Source: Schwartzia succinivorans DSM 10502
GTDB taxonomy: Bacteria; Bacillota; Negativicutes; Selenomonadales; Selenomonadaceae
Assembly (NCBI RefSeq): GCF_900129225.1
Contig: NZ_FQUG01000008.1
Span: 1 to 64,000 of the forward strand
Length of the DNA stretch: 64,000 nt
Reading direction: 5' to 3'
Shown: piece by piece, positions 43,512 to 46,421 of the stretch
Layout of the letters: the number at the start of each line of letters is the position of its first letter
Position numbering within the stretch: the first letter of the stretch is position 1
Translations under genes and position numbers: made by a program
The notes under the pieces: model-generated
The model's input: only the letters and a program-made list of their open reading frames with translations
Told to the model about the DNA's origin: nothing
Databases searched by the model: none

Positions 43512-43604
43512 TGTGGATAAAGTGGATAACTTTTTAGGAAATTGATTTTTTCTTATATTTGCGCCATTTCATAAAAGCCTGAAAATCTTTTTGATTGTGG
43601 ATAA
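43512..43604 (-). promoter_or_regulatory. Two DnaA-box 9-mers upstream of nrdD
   Basis: TGTGGATAA (reverse complement of the consensus TTATCCACA) occurs perfectly at 43512-43520 and 43596-43604, with a near match GTGGATAAC at 43522-43530. DnaA is known to act at ribonucleotide reductase promoters in E. coli, so regulation of nrdD by DnaA is plausible inference. There is no AT-rich unwinding array or replication gene to suggest an origin. Confidence 0.5.
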
Positions 43605-43619
43605 CTTTATATACCCGAA

Positions 43620-43670
43620 TACCCATATATAGACTCAATCGTTGACCTTCCCCACTATATATTGTATAAT
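43620..43670 (+). promoter_or_regulatory. nrdD promoter with tandem NrdR-box-like sites
   Basis: TTGACC (43642-43647), 17-base spacer, TATAAT (43665-43670). Two sites resembling the NrdR box (core CTATATATAG) flank and overlap it: CCATATATAG core at 43623-43632 and CTATATATTG core at 43655-43664, each one mismatch from the core, exactly 32 bp apart (three helical turns). Known NrdR boxes come as tandem 16-bp sites with such spacing, so repression by NrdR/dATP is likely. Confidence 0.72.
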
Positions 43671-43733: not shown

Positions 43734-46001
43734 TTGACAAAAATAAAGCAGATTCGCAAGCGAAACGGAGACGTTGCTGTATTTGATGTGGAGAAAATTA
43801 CCAACGCCATCCGCAAAGCCAACATGGAATCCACGGACCATACTTTTACGGAGAAGGAGCTGGCGGCACTAACCAAAAATGTTATTGAGCAGGTAGCCGA
43901 CAAGGAAATCCCCGGCGTAGAGTATATCCAGGATGCTGTTGAGCGTGCACTTATCAAGAAGAACTACGCGTCCACAGCAAAGGCTTACATTCTTTACCGC
44001 GCAGCACACACAAGAATCCGCGAGGCAGAGGTTGACCTCATGGATATCTATGACGAGCTGACCTACAAAAACGCGAAGGATGCGGACCTGAAGCGTGAGA
44101 ACGCTAACATTGATGCCGACACTGCAATGGGCACAATGCTGAAATACGGCTCAGAGGGTTCAAAGTATTTCATAACACACCGTATTCTTCCGAAGGATAT
44201 CGCGGCTGCTCACCTGAACGGCGACATTCACATCCATGACATGGATTTCTACATGCTCACGGAAACCTGCTGTCAGATTGACCTTTTGAAGCTGTTCAAG
44301 AACGGCTTTTCTACCGGTCACGGCTGCCTGCGGGAGCCTAACGACATCCGCTCCTATGCGGCGCTCGGCTGTATCGCGATTCAGGCGAACCAGAACGAAA
44401 TGCACGGCGGCCAGTCGATTCCGAACTTCGACTACTCCATGGCTCCGGGCGTAAGAAAGACGTTCAAAAAGCAGTATTTCGCACACCTGGCCGAGTATTT
44501 CTGTGCCATGTTCGGCATGAAGCTTGAGGACGCGACTCTTCTCGCCAAGGAAATCAAAAACCGTATAACACTCGAAATCACACTCGGAAATGTTGATACA
44601 TATAAGCAGAGAGTGATGGAATTTCTGCCGGCACATCAGGCTCGCCACGGTTTCCAGACCATAACGGCTGAAAACGCGGCAAAGGCTCACGATTTTGCTG
44701 TACAGACAGCCATTGCATCCACTGACCACGCTACATATCAGGCAATGGAGGCTTTCATCCACAATCTTAACACGATGAACTCCCGCGCCGGTGCACAGGT
44801 TCCATTCAGCTCCGTAAACTACGGAACGGATACTTCTCCTGAGGCACGCATGGTCATGAAAAATCTGCTCAAGGCTACATCAGCAGGTCTCGGTGAGGGT
44901 GAAACCCCGATTTTCCCTGTCCAGATTTTCAAGGTCAAGGAGGGTGTCAACTACAATCCGGGAGACCCGAATTACGATATTTTCCAGGAGGCAATCAAGA
45001 CAAGCGCAAAGCGGCTGTTCCCGAATTTCAGCTTCCTTGATGCTCCCTTCAATAAACAGTATTATCACGCAGGGAACTACGACTCCGAGGTGGCGTACAT
45101 GGGCTGCCGCACGCGAGTCATGGGCAACGTCTACGACCCGAACCGTGAGGTCACAAGCGGCCGCGGAAACCTAAGCTTTACAAGCGTAAATCTTCCGCGT
45201 CTTGCCATCGAAGCAAAGGGCGACCTTGACGAGTTCTACAAGGGTCTTGATGAAATGACGGACCTCATCATACGCCAGCTTCTGCACCGCTTTAAGATTC
45301 AGTGCTCGAAGAAATGCAGAAACTATCCGTTCCTCATGGGACAGGGCGTATGGATTGATTCCGAAAAGCTCGGGCCTGATGATTCAGTCGCTGAGATTCT
45401 GAAGCACGGTACGCTTACCATGGGCTTCATCGGTCTCGCAGAATGTCTCACAGCACTCATTGGAAAGCATCACGGCGAATCCGATAAGGCTCAGCGCCTC
45501 GGTCTCGCTATCGTCAGCCACATGCGCAAGCGTATGGACGAGGAATCAAAGCGCACAGGACTGAATTTCGGTCTTATCGCAACTCCTGCAGAGGGACTTT
45601 CCGGACGCTTCCTGCGTATTGACCGCCAGCGTTACGGCAAAATCAAGGGCGTAACGGACCGCGCTTACTACACAAACAGCTTCCATGTCCCTGTGTATTT
45701 CCCGATTGCGGCTGCGAAGAAAATCCAGATTGAAGGACCATACCACAATCTGACAAACGCAGGCCACATCAGCTACGTAGAGATGGACGGAGATCCTTCG
45801 AAGAACCTCAAGGCCTTCGAAGCAATTATCCGCTGCATGCACGATAACGGCATCGGTTACGGCTCCGTAAATCATCCGGTAGACAGAGATCCGGTCTGCG
45901 GCTATAACGGAATTATTGATAATGTATGTCCGCGCTGCGGAAGAAGCGCAGAGGAGCACCATCACCATATAGTCATCCCCCGCGCATCCTGCTGCGACTG
46001 A
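43734..46001 (+). CDS. nrdD: Anaerobic (class III) ribonucleoside-triphosphate reductase, large chain lacking the glycyl-radical loop
   Basis: Reduces ribonucleotides to deoxyribonucleotides without oxygen. An N-terminal ATP-cone (IRKRNGDVAVFDVEKITNAI, residues ~5-95) senses ATP/dATP; the ten-stranded barrel follows with DIHIHDMDFYM, CCQIDLLKLF and QNEMHGGQSIPNFDY. The C-terminus has the zinc-ribbon region (PVCGYNGIIDNVCPRCGR) but then ends in AEEHHHHIVIPRASCCD. The usual glycyl-radical segment (RxxGYL plus tail) is absent; it is encoded by the next gene. The first Cys of the zinc site, often CPVCGY, is D here. The start is TTG at 43734. Repression through NrdR is indicated by the upstream boxes. 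Confidence 0.9.
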   Translation: MTKIKQIRKRNGDVAVFDVEKITNAIRKANMESTDHTFTEKELAALTKNVIEQVADKEIPGVEYIQDAVERALIKKNYASTAKAYILYRAAHTRIREAEVDLMDIYDELTYKNAKDADLKRENANIDADTAMGTMLKYGSEGSKYFITHRILPKDIAAAHLNGDIHIHDMDFYMLTETCCQIDLLKLFKNGFSTGHGCLREPNDIRSYAALGCIAIQANQNEMHGGQSIPNFDYSMAPGVRKTFKKQYFAHLAEYFCAMFGMKLEDATLLAKEIKNRITLEITLGNVDTYKQRVMEFLPAHQARHGFQTITAENAAKAHDFAVQTAIASTDHATYQAMEAFIHNLNTMNSRAGAQVPFSSVNYGTDTSPEARMVMKNLLKATSAGLGEGETPIFPVQIFKVKEGVNYNPGDPNYDIFQEAIKTSAKRLFPNFSFLDAPFNKQYYHAGNYDSEVAYMGCRTRVMGNVYDPNREVTSGRGNLSFTSVNLPRLAIEAKGDLDEFYKGLDEMTDLIIRQLLHRFKIQCSKKCRNYPFLMGQGVWIDSEKLGPDDSVAEILKHGTLTMGFIGLAECLTALIGKHHGESDKAQRLGLAIVSHMRKRMDEESKRTGLNFGLIATPAEGLSGRFLRIDRQRYGKIKGVTDRAYYTNSFHVPVYFPIAAAKKIQIEGPYHNLTNAGHISYVEMDGDPSKNLKAFEAIIRCMHDNGIGYGSVNHPVDRDPVCGYNGIIDNVCPRCGRSAEEHHHHIVIPRASCCD

Positions 46002-46027
46002 AAATAAAATTGAAAGGAAGGACTCTA

Positions 46028-46318
46028 ATGAACGTAAACGGAATTGAAGTAACAATAAAGGGTATTGACGATATTTCTGAAAAAGAAATTCTTACATATA
46101 TGAACTACATTGAAGAGCAGAACATCGGAGAAACTCTCGAATCTCTCGAAATCTCCGGCGCTCCCGACGGAAATGTAGCCCTCGACTACACGCTCCGTCC
46201 GCAGGAGTTTGAGCGTATCCGCCGTATAACCGGATACCTCGTTGGAACCATCGACCGCTGGAACAACGCCAAGCGTGCCGAGGAGCATGACCGTGTAAAG
46301 CACAGTCTCATGCACTGA
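46028..46318 (+). CDS. Stand-alone glycyl-radical domain subunit of the anaerobic ribonucleotide reductase
   Basis: A 96-residue protein in two parts. Residues ~1-57 (NVNGIEVTIKGIDDISEKEI onward) match nothing I recognise and are predicted to be a small alpha/beta domain. Residues ~58-94 read FERIRRITGYLVGTIDRWNN then AKRAEEHDRVKH, which is the C-terminal glycyl-radical loop normally found at the end of NrdD; Gly of ITGYL would carry the radical. An own ribosome binding site (AAGGAAGG) precedes the ATG, 26 bases after the large-chain stop. It is therefore inferred to dock on the large chain and be activated by NrdG, in the manner that YfiD/GrcA complements pyruvate formate-lyase. Confidence 0.85.
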   Translation: MNVNGIEVTIKGIDDISEKEILTYMNYIEEQNIGETLESLEISGAPDGNVALDYTLRPQEFERIRRITGYLVGTIDRWNNAKRAEEHDRVKHSLMH

Positions 46319-46391: not shown

Positions 46392-46421
46392 AAGGCCTTT
46401 CCCAAGCATTGGAAAGGCCTT
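46392..46421 (+). terminator. Terminator between the radical-domain gene and nrdG
   Basis: 11-bp perfect stem AAGGCCTTTCC / GGAAAGGCCTT with an 8-base loop, followed by CCTTTTT. nrdG therefore depends on readthrough or on an unseen promoter. Confidence 0.85.

Follow-up and report, generated by a model that had tools for sequence, protein, structure and literature searches.

Stand-alone glycyl-radical proteins have so far been tied to one enzyme: in the passages of PMC8683613 that deal with them, YfiD/GrcA and phage T4 Y06I are autonomous glycyl radical cofactors of pyruvate formate-lyase, these two are the only ones validated, with the possibility that other glycyl radical enzymes have such parts too. 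For class III ribonucleotide reductases (RNRs), passages of papers listed in PubMed Central place the radical glycine in the catalytic chain. Here we describe a locus of Schwartzia succinivorans DSM 10502 (contig NZ_FQUG01000008.1, positions 1 to 64,000; this whole stretch of 64,000 nucleotides is called the window) in which nrdD, the gene of the catalytic chain, encodes no glycyl loop and is followed by a gene for a 96-residue protein that carries one. Judging from sequence comparison, the two very probably form a functional class III RNR of two chains, the 96-residue protein giving the glycyl loop in trans as a spare part turned obligate.

Like YfiD/GrcA and Y06I, the 96-residue protein is a small stand-alone protein with an N-terminal part of its own and a C-terminal glycyl-radical segment, it has relatives in bacteria and phages, and it would likewise supply the radical in trans. 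Unlike YfiD/GrcA, it goes with NrdD and not with pyruvate formate-lyase, and the main chain in Selenomonadaceae has no segment of its own, so that the small part looks obligate. By hmmscan it matches NRDD (PF13597) and not Gly_radical (PF01228) at E-values up to 1; the latter is the family to which GrcA presumably belongs. Its N-terminal domain is predicted to be folded, while that of YfiD is disordered according to the part of PMC8683613 that describes it. With the one-chain NrdD/NrdG systems of Prevotella copri (8p23), T4 (1h78) and S. thermophilus (9d3x) the locus shares the ATP-cone (which the T4 chain lacks), the barrel, the finger-loop cysteine, the zinc ribbon and NrdG; it differs from them in having the glycyl loop and the C-terminal tail on a second gene. 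An RNR in two chains is also described, in passages of PMC9669993, for the split class II NrdJa/NrdJb of Pseudomonas, although it is the C-terminal domains that are detached in that enzyme, which uses no glycyl radical, whereas here the radical-bearing segment is the second chain. Phage nrdD likewise comes in pieces, split by introns, inteins and homing endonucleases (passages of PMC3653736), but those are interrupted coding sequences, while the second piece described here carries an N-terminal domain of its own and often lies apart from nrdD. The open-licence PubMed Central literature yielded no account of an NrdD whose glycyl-radical subunit is a protein of its own, subscription papers and RNRdb being outside that search. 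The pair is in effect a YfiD-like spare part, but for another enzyme, from another sequence family and apparently obligate.

The original prediction, made from the letters of the window, held that the 755-residue NrdD lacks the glycyl-radical segment and that the next gene, 26 bp on, carries it; both statements stand. NrdD covers positions 1-531 of the 562 in NRDD (hmmscan, E 9e-189), with positions 532-562 taken up by residues 60-92 of the small protein (E 8e-8), so that the two chains are exactly complementary; the profile scan places no radical glycine loop in the NrdD chain, which ends at position 531 with the loop on the next gene. NF005497 (746 positions) is divided in the same manner, with 2-710 on NrdD and 710-744 on the small protein. 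The assignment of NrdD to the class III catalytic domain is clear (629 bits against a curated cut-off of 26.2 for NRDD, and 1063 against 764 for NF005497), and the activase is encoded at the locus (TIGR02491, 158.9 bits against 126.1). The 26 bp between the nrdD stop and the ATG of the small gene (46028) include AAGGAAGG, and the frames of the two open reading frames (ORFs) differ. The features are collected in Table 1.

Table 1. Features in and around the nrdD/small-gene locus, with positions in the window (pLDDT, predicted local distance difference test)
Feature	Position	Strand	Remarks
nrdD, class III reductase catalytic chain without glycyl loop, 755 aa	43734..46001	+	TTG start; PF13597, ATP-cone PF03477, NF005497
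Small glycyl-radical subunit gene (putative), 96 aa	46028..46318	+	ATG start, PF13597
nrdG, radical-SAM activase, 166 aa	46467..46967	+	TIGR02491 above cut-off
Codon of Cys458, expected thiyl-radical cysteine, finger loop MGCRTRV	45105..45107	+	alignment with P. copri NrdD 8p23
Zinc-ribbon-like cysteines 722, 732, 735 and short tail (HHIVIPRASCCD) ending the NrdD chain	45897..45998	+	
N-terminal domain of small protein, residues 1-58, predicted beta-alpha-beta-beta	46028..46201	+	AlphaFold pLDDT 81-88
Glycyl-radical segment FERIRRITGYLVGTIDRWNNAKRAEEHDRVKH, residues 59-96 of small protein	46202..46315	+	NRDD 532-562
Codon of Gly69 (RRITGYL), expected radical glycine	46232..46234	+	invariant, 26 aligned rows
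NrdR-like box pair, 16-bp spacer	43620..43667 (43620-43635, 43652-43667)	.	overlaps promoter-like site
Promoter-like site TTGACC-17-TATAAT 5' of nrdD	43642..43670	+	11/12 matches; suggestive only
Terminator-like hairpin between small gene and nrdG	46392..46421	+	11-pair stem and T run

In the mechanism that we propose, NrdD would give the ATP-cone, barrel, substrate site, radical cysteine and zinc ribbon, and the 96-residue protein the glycyl loop. The strand (FERIRRI) and loop (TGYLVG) of the small protein would insert in the barrel at the place of the fused loop; NrdG would abstract a hydrogen from Gly69, the radical would then pass to Cys458, and catalysis would proceed as in one-chain NrdD. 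Where oxygen cleaves the glycyl chain, only the cheap 96-residue piece would be replaced and the 755-residue chain kept, the truncated NrdD being, as we infer, akin to a glycyl radical enzyme after cleavage by oxygen, but with the shortened form written into the gene. We propose docking, activation and exchange by analogy with YfiD.

The position of the cut can be read against the NrdD of P. copri, in which, according to passages of PMC11226230, the glycyl-radical domain (residues 676-739) includes both the Zn site and Gly711. Since that domain holds both, the chain is cut inside the glycyl-radical domain, between zinc ribbon and glycyl loop, and the earlier claim that the split falls at a domain boundary has to be given up. 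In the 33 truncated NrdDs of our tree (below), the chain runs on for 16 to 29 residues past the last ribbon cysteine. Most tails keep a short hydrophobic-x-R stretch (VIPR, TIKR, VPRM) at about the place where FERIRRI precedes the glycine in fused NrdD, and none of the 33 has a TGY motif.

These tails bear on the best-surviving alternative, an improbable one in our estimate, in which the small protein serves as an emergency spare part only and the truncated NrdD draws on another residue or protein for its radical. Such an auxiliary role would fit the presence of the same kind of protein beside intact NrdD in other taxa, and 20 of the 33 tails do keep some glycine past their fifth residue; yet no tail offers a TGY, and the other 13, that of the window included, have no glycine past that point at all. 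Genomes with few reductases speak against it further. PF02867, the profile of class I/II large subunits, matches 20 of 189 Selenomonadaceae genomes and 20 of the 99 good ones; a control search was positive in 11 of 14 known genomes. Nine Selenomonadaceae genomes consist of one contig (G and L numbers are our labels for genomes and for sequences or loci). Two of these, G140 and G141, have an intact NrdD and PF02867, and in the profile search PF02867 was absent from the other seven (G025, G033, G035, G037, G039, G146, G177). Each of the seven has exactly two PF13597 matches, NrdD and the small protein, and no further NrdD. The NrdD match ends at profile position 531-540 in six of them, the seventh (G035) having a 755-residue ORF whose match with the truncated query extends to residue 750; for G025, G039, G146 and G177 we read the truncated ends directly. 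The pair is hence the sole detectable RNR in seven genomes, where the glycine is most simply supplied in trans. That the truncated NrdD would need the small protein is, on these comparisons, well supported.

A second alternative, less probable still, holds that the truncated NrdD has lost its activity and is decaying, and that the small protein is a leftover or has another function. It could draw on the class II NrdJ in the genome of the window (L032, TIGR02504), which could make class III dispensable there. Conservation argues otherwise. The 96-residue query matches 178 of 189 Selenomonadaceae genomes (97 of 99 good ones, 28 of 30 genera), though not all of these matches are stand-alone: in G127, G140 and G141 the query hits nothing but the radical segment within a full-length NrdD, and the weak matches in genus g11 were partly inspected. 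The NrdD query matches 181 of the 189 genomes and 29 of the 30 genera, and the seven one-contig genomes above have no other detectable RNR. Named loci with the small gene come from Schwartzia, Selenomonas, Anaerovibrio, Mitsuokella, Pectinatus and Megamonas. Furthermore, comparison of the window with its nearest relative (L033) gives nonsynonymous and synonymous divergences (dN, dS) of 0.018 and 1.77 for the small gene, with no amino-acid change in the radical segment, and of 0.037 and 1.35 for nrdD. Both genes are under strong purifying selection.

Decay is also at variance with the NrdR-like sites kept at many loci. A pair was counted when it scored at least 24 of 32, against an NrdR consensus, within 250 bp upstream; three of 80 loci were dropped (no 250 bp upstream or no mapped start). 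By this rule pairs lie 5' of 17 of 29 unlinked small genes and of 11 of 19 linked nrdDs, and 5' of none of the 21 linked small genes, which sit inside the operon. Lone small genes have them in 1 of 10 cases in Selenomonadaceae and in 3 of 17 in other taxa, and the background is 12 in 1500 random windows of the same loci and 1 in 1450 shuffles. The pair of the window scores 24, just at that threshold. Published NrdR sites, in the passages of PMC12051234 that give it, have a spacing of 15-16 bp, as in the box pairs here. It looks as if the small gene, once out of the nrdD operon, often keeps an apparent RNR-regulator site. Conservation, selection, regulation and the sole-RNR genomes together strongly support the proposal of a separate radical subunit for a truncated class III reductase.

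Gene order weighs on the two remaining alternatives. Among 60 Selenomonadaceae loci, the small gene has nrdD in front and nrdG behind in 20, nrdD only in 1, nrdG behind and no nrdD in 28, and neither adjoining in 11 (by a script rule that missed the nrdG of L058); nrdG lies directly behind it in 48 of the 60. In the one-contig genome G146 (sequences L148, L149) nrdD is at 2.72 Mb and the small gene with nrdG at 0.93 Mb, and in Selenomonas-type genomes nrdD is likewise far away. It is therefore highly improbable that the chains are joined in translation, by stop-codon readthrough or frameshifting, into one working polypeptide. The 26-bp distance in the window would allow it, and 8 of 22 adjacent pairs have their frames in register, close to the one third that chance would give; but in the window the frames differ and the small gene is equipped with a ribosome-binding site and start of its own, and fusion is impossible in the many genera where the genes are on different contigs or far apart. 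The same unlinked genera uphold the original prediction that this is no frameshift. An assembly or sequencing artefact has a negligible probability, given the same arrangement in well over 100 genomes, among them one-contig genomes and those of named isolates (Selenomonas, Anaerovibrio, Pectinatus); conservation across genomes also disposes of a sequencing error whose correction would fuse the frames. Frameshift, assembly error and pseudogene were all rejected on the grounds of unlinked genera, conservation and selection.

Several observations weigh against an obligate two-chain enzyme or limit its reach. A second full-length NrdD, which would have undermined the proposal, was not found in the genome of the window, which has one NrdD; since it also has the class II NrdJ, however, the pair is not the sole RNR there and is not proven essential. 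An intact NrdD stands without a glycine-bearing small protein in the one-contig genomes G140 and G141 and in G127, so the split is not universal in Selenomonadaceae. Counts taken from the matches listed are lower bounds where result tables are long, and NrdR-like pairs reach the threshold in only part of each group. In an AlphaFold model of a read-through chain (NrdD, linker, small protein) the radical segment has a pLDDT of only 32-39. Fold comparison places Gly836 of that model on residue 580 of T4 NrdD in 1hk8, 1h79 and 1h78 (offset 256), a result that we treat as weak; in 1h7a and 1h7b the glycine misses that residue by one or two positions, and with P. copri 8p23 the register is lost. The superposition on T4 NrdD is, at most, compatible with canonical docking.

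In the AlphaFold model of the small protein alone, the N-terminal domain is the confident part (Table 1) and the radical segment is without confident structure. Foldseek gave no match at E up to 0.001; tRNA-splicing endonuclease and YfiA/HPF domains were among the best rows and were set aside as too weak to use.

Among the matches listed, Selenomonadaceae NrdDs end at NRDD position 529-540, with named exceptions. Full-length NrdDs occur in G127, G140 and G141, and full-length rows in G063, G067, G070, G074 and G111, with truncated copies too in G067 and G111. G041 (Mitsuokella) has a second NrdD of another subclass, the match of G130 runs to 548 through two stop codons, that of G014 starts at 20, and that of G179 ends at 478, at a contig end.

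Outside the family the small protein is found beside intact NrdD. A PF13597 scan of 25 genomes that contain loci of the small protein showed it together with a full-length NrdD (1-562), mostly at another place in the genome, in Anaerotignum (Clostridia), Massilimicrobiota (Erysipelotrichia) and Raoultibacter (Coriobacteriia), and the same coexistence was seen in Massilibacillus and in metagenome-assembled genomes of Ruminococcus and of Clostridia. An even draw of 150 Negativicutes genomes contains 121 from outside Selenomonadaceae. Among the matches listed, the NrdDs of these are full-length bar one copy each in G251, G308 and G326 (G251 and G308 also hold a full-length NrdD row, and G326 has further PF13597 matches), and by a hand count of those matches at least 57 of the 121 encode a small protein that stands alone. 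The N-terminal domain is uncommon in Clostridia, with 4 of 148 evenly drawn genomes; another 40 matching genomes have the radical segment only, mostly inside ORFs of at least 600 residues. The small gene is nearly universal in Selenomonadaceae but is not peculiar to the pair with truncated NrdD, the small-protein family being wider and coexisting with intact NrdDs. Lone copies, we infer, would repair intact NrdD. No recurrent neighbour of lone small genes outside Selenomonadaceae was seen across 11 loci, compared by the first residues of each ORF; the related loci L098 and L165 share two genes flanking the lone small gene.

Radical segments are of two types, RIRRITGYLVG and RVRRITGYLS, with near variants. 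In 23 hand-picked pairs, NrdD and small protein of one genome are of the same type, and they are closer than shuffled partners (0 of 10000), a comparison that kinship confounds. This similarity test left out G201, G234, G248, G251, G255, G270 and second copies; in G234, G248, G255 and G270 the fetched NrdD and small protein differ in type, and all four genomes contain additional PF13597 matches.

A tree of 69 NrdDs (35 full, 33 truncated, 1 Gly-to-Ser) was built without the radical segment, after 12 of 81 NrdD ORFs had been dropped as near-duplicates, pieces cut by contig ends or frameshifts, or NrdDs of other subclasses. It needs seven changes between full and not full, of which at least six (label 'full') or five (label 'truncated') are forced by well-supported branches. 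The full-length NrdDs of G217, G229 and Massilibacillus branch among truncated ones, and the same genomes have the small protein. An NrdD-type spare-part family would first have stood beside intact NrdD; in Selenomonadaceae the main chain would then have lost its segment and the spare part become obligate. Repeated loss of the main-chain segment after a spare-part stage appears the simplest reading of the tree, and the full-length NrdDs of G140 and G127 might conceivably have arisen by re-fusion.

Some single loci outside the main pattern were also recorded. In L101:3604-6444 (G198) the small gene lies directly behind a full-length nrdD with its own radical segment, and G428:C10:30575-31032 looks alike; this arrangement appears to be a stage on the way from spare part to obligate subunit. 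In G251 an NrdD of the other type was truncated independently (L175:2444-4453, L174; a 670-residue frame); its gene is immediately followed by nrdG, the small protein is encoded at another place, and a full NrdD of another subclass (L196) is present too. In G255, the only such genome, a second-type NrdD (L200, G255:C1:331800-335100) has serine in place of the radical glycine (RRITSYL); small proteins and another full-length NrdD are present as well.

Relatives of the small protein are also encoded by viruses. In IMG/VR, 393 candidate stretches encode them, and among the best 80, which were taken further, 68 carry a stand-alone small protein and 12 are fused or unclear (by script). Sixty of the 68 stand-alone copies have neither nrdD nor nrdG in the available DNA, 5 have both and 3 have nrdD only. 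Read by eye, NrdDs without a radical segment accompany the small gene on L242, L243, L258, L264, L268, L272, L276 and L277 (two near-copy pairs among them), and those of L306 and L311 are full-length. Phage genes were checked in L235, L238 and L242. In L235, the contig stretch with the second small gene of Anaerovibrio slackiae (L087), and in L238 the small gene lies behind an endolysin gene, followed in L238 by an integrase and a repressor-like gene; a place behind the endolysin is typical for a prophage cargo gene. Both stretches also have a reverse transcriptase gene (PHROG 1423) less than 5 kb from the small gene and endolysin, possibly part of a diversity-generating element. A phage collection yielded 16 matching records, of which two, unannotated contigs of faecal phages, span 80% of the query; among plasmids 28 records match and none covers 80%. 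The restoration of pyruvate formate-lyase by T4 Y06I, as passages of PMC8683613 describe it, is a parallel to these viral small genes.

A paralog of about 78 residues (L163, L164, L203-L232; for example G172:C59:6043-6276) has the same kind of N-terminal domain and FERIRRI, and then no TGYLVG. It was found in 61 of 189 Selenomonadaceae genomes, in 57 of them at E 4e-11 or better, and the genome of the window gave no match. GYL is present in 0 of 31 aligned copies, and 26 of the 31 end in RAVNN. This glycine-less twin may be a cap or a competitor at the docking site.

Whether all of these elements hold jointly we regard as evenly balanced: a class III spare-part system in several bacterial classes and in phages; its conversion into an obligate subunit at least twice (by truncation in Selenomonadaceae and in the genus of G251, a third genome, G255, having Gly-to-Ser in one main chain); a phage moron reviving or capturing the host reductase; and a glycine-less twin as cap or competitor. 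The family would offer a widespread spare-part candidate for an enzyme of DNA precursors, with apparent intermediates, end states and phage versions. With it, the ways in which strict anaerobes maintain DNA synthesis after oxygen exposure become testable, and its putative radical subunit, naturally separable, would open electron paramagnetic resonance, exchange and half-site experiments that are barred with the fused enzyme.

Finally, some minor features were noted. In G211 (L137, L142) nrdD is broken up; gaps of about 1 kb separate the pieces, whose ends meet closely in the profile (157/154, 471/471), and the ORFs in the gaps look like what we take to be HNH and LAGLIDADG homing endonucleases, which suggests introns; Rfam gave no match in the two interrupted loci. 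In other genomes of genus g11 nrdD also appears in several matches. Rfam gave no match near the nrdD/small-gene locus of the window either. In this region promoter-like sites (5 found, 4.2 expected) and terminator-like hairpins (5 found, 3.8 expected) are within the range of chance. TGTGGATAA, which we take to be a DnaA-box-like motif, occurs four times in the whole window against 0.5 expected, and two of the four sites (43512-43520 and 43596-43604) lie just 5' of nrdD.

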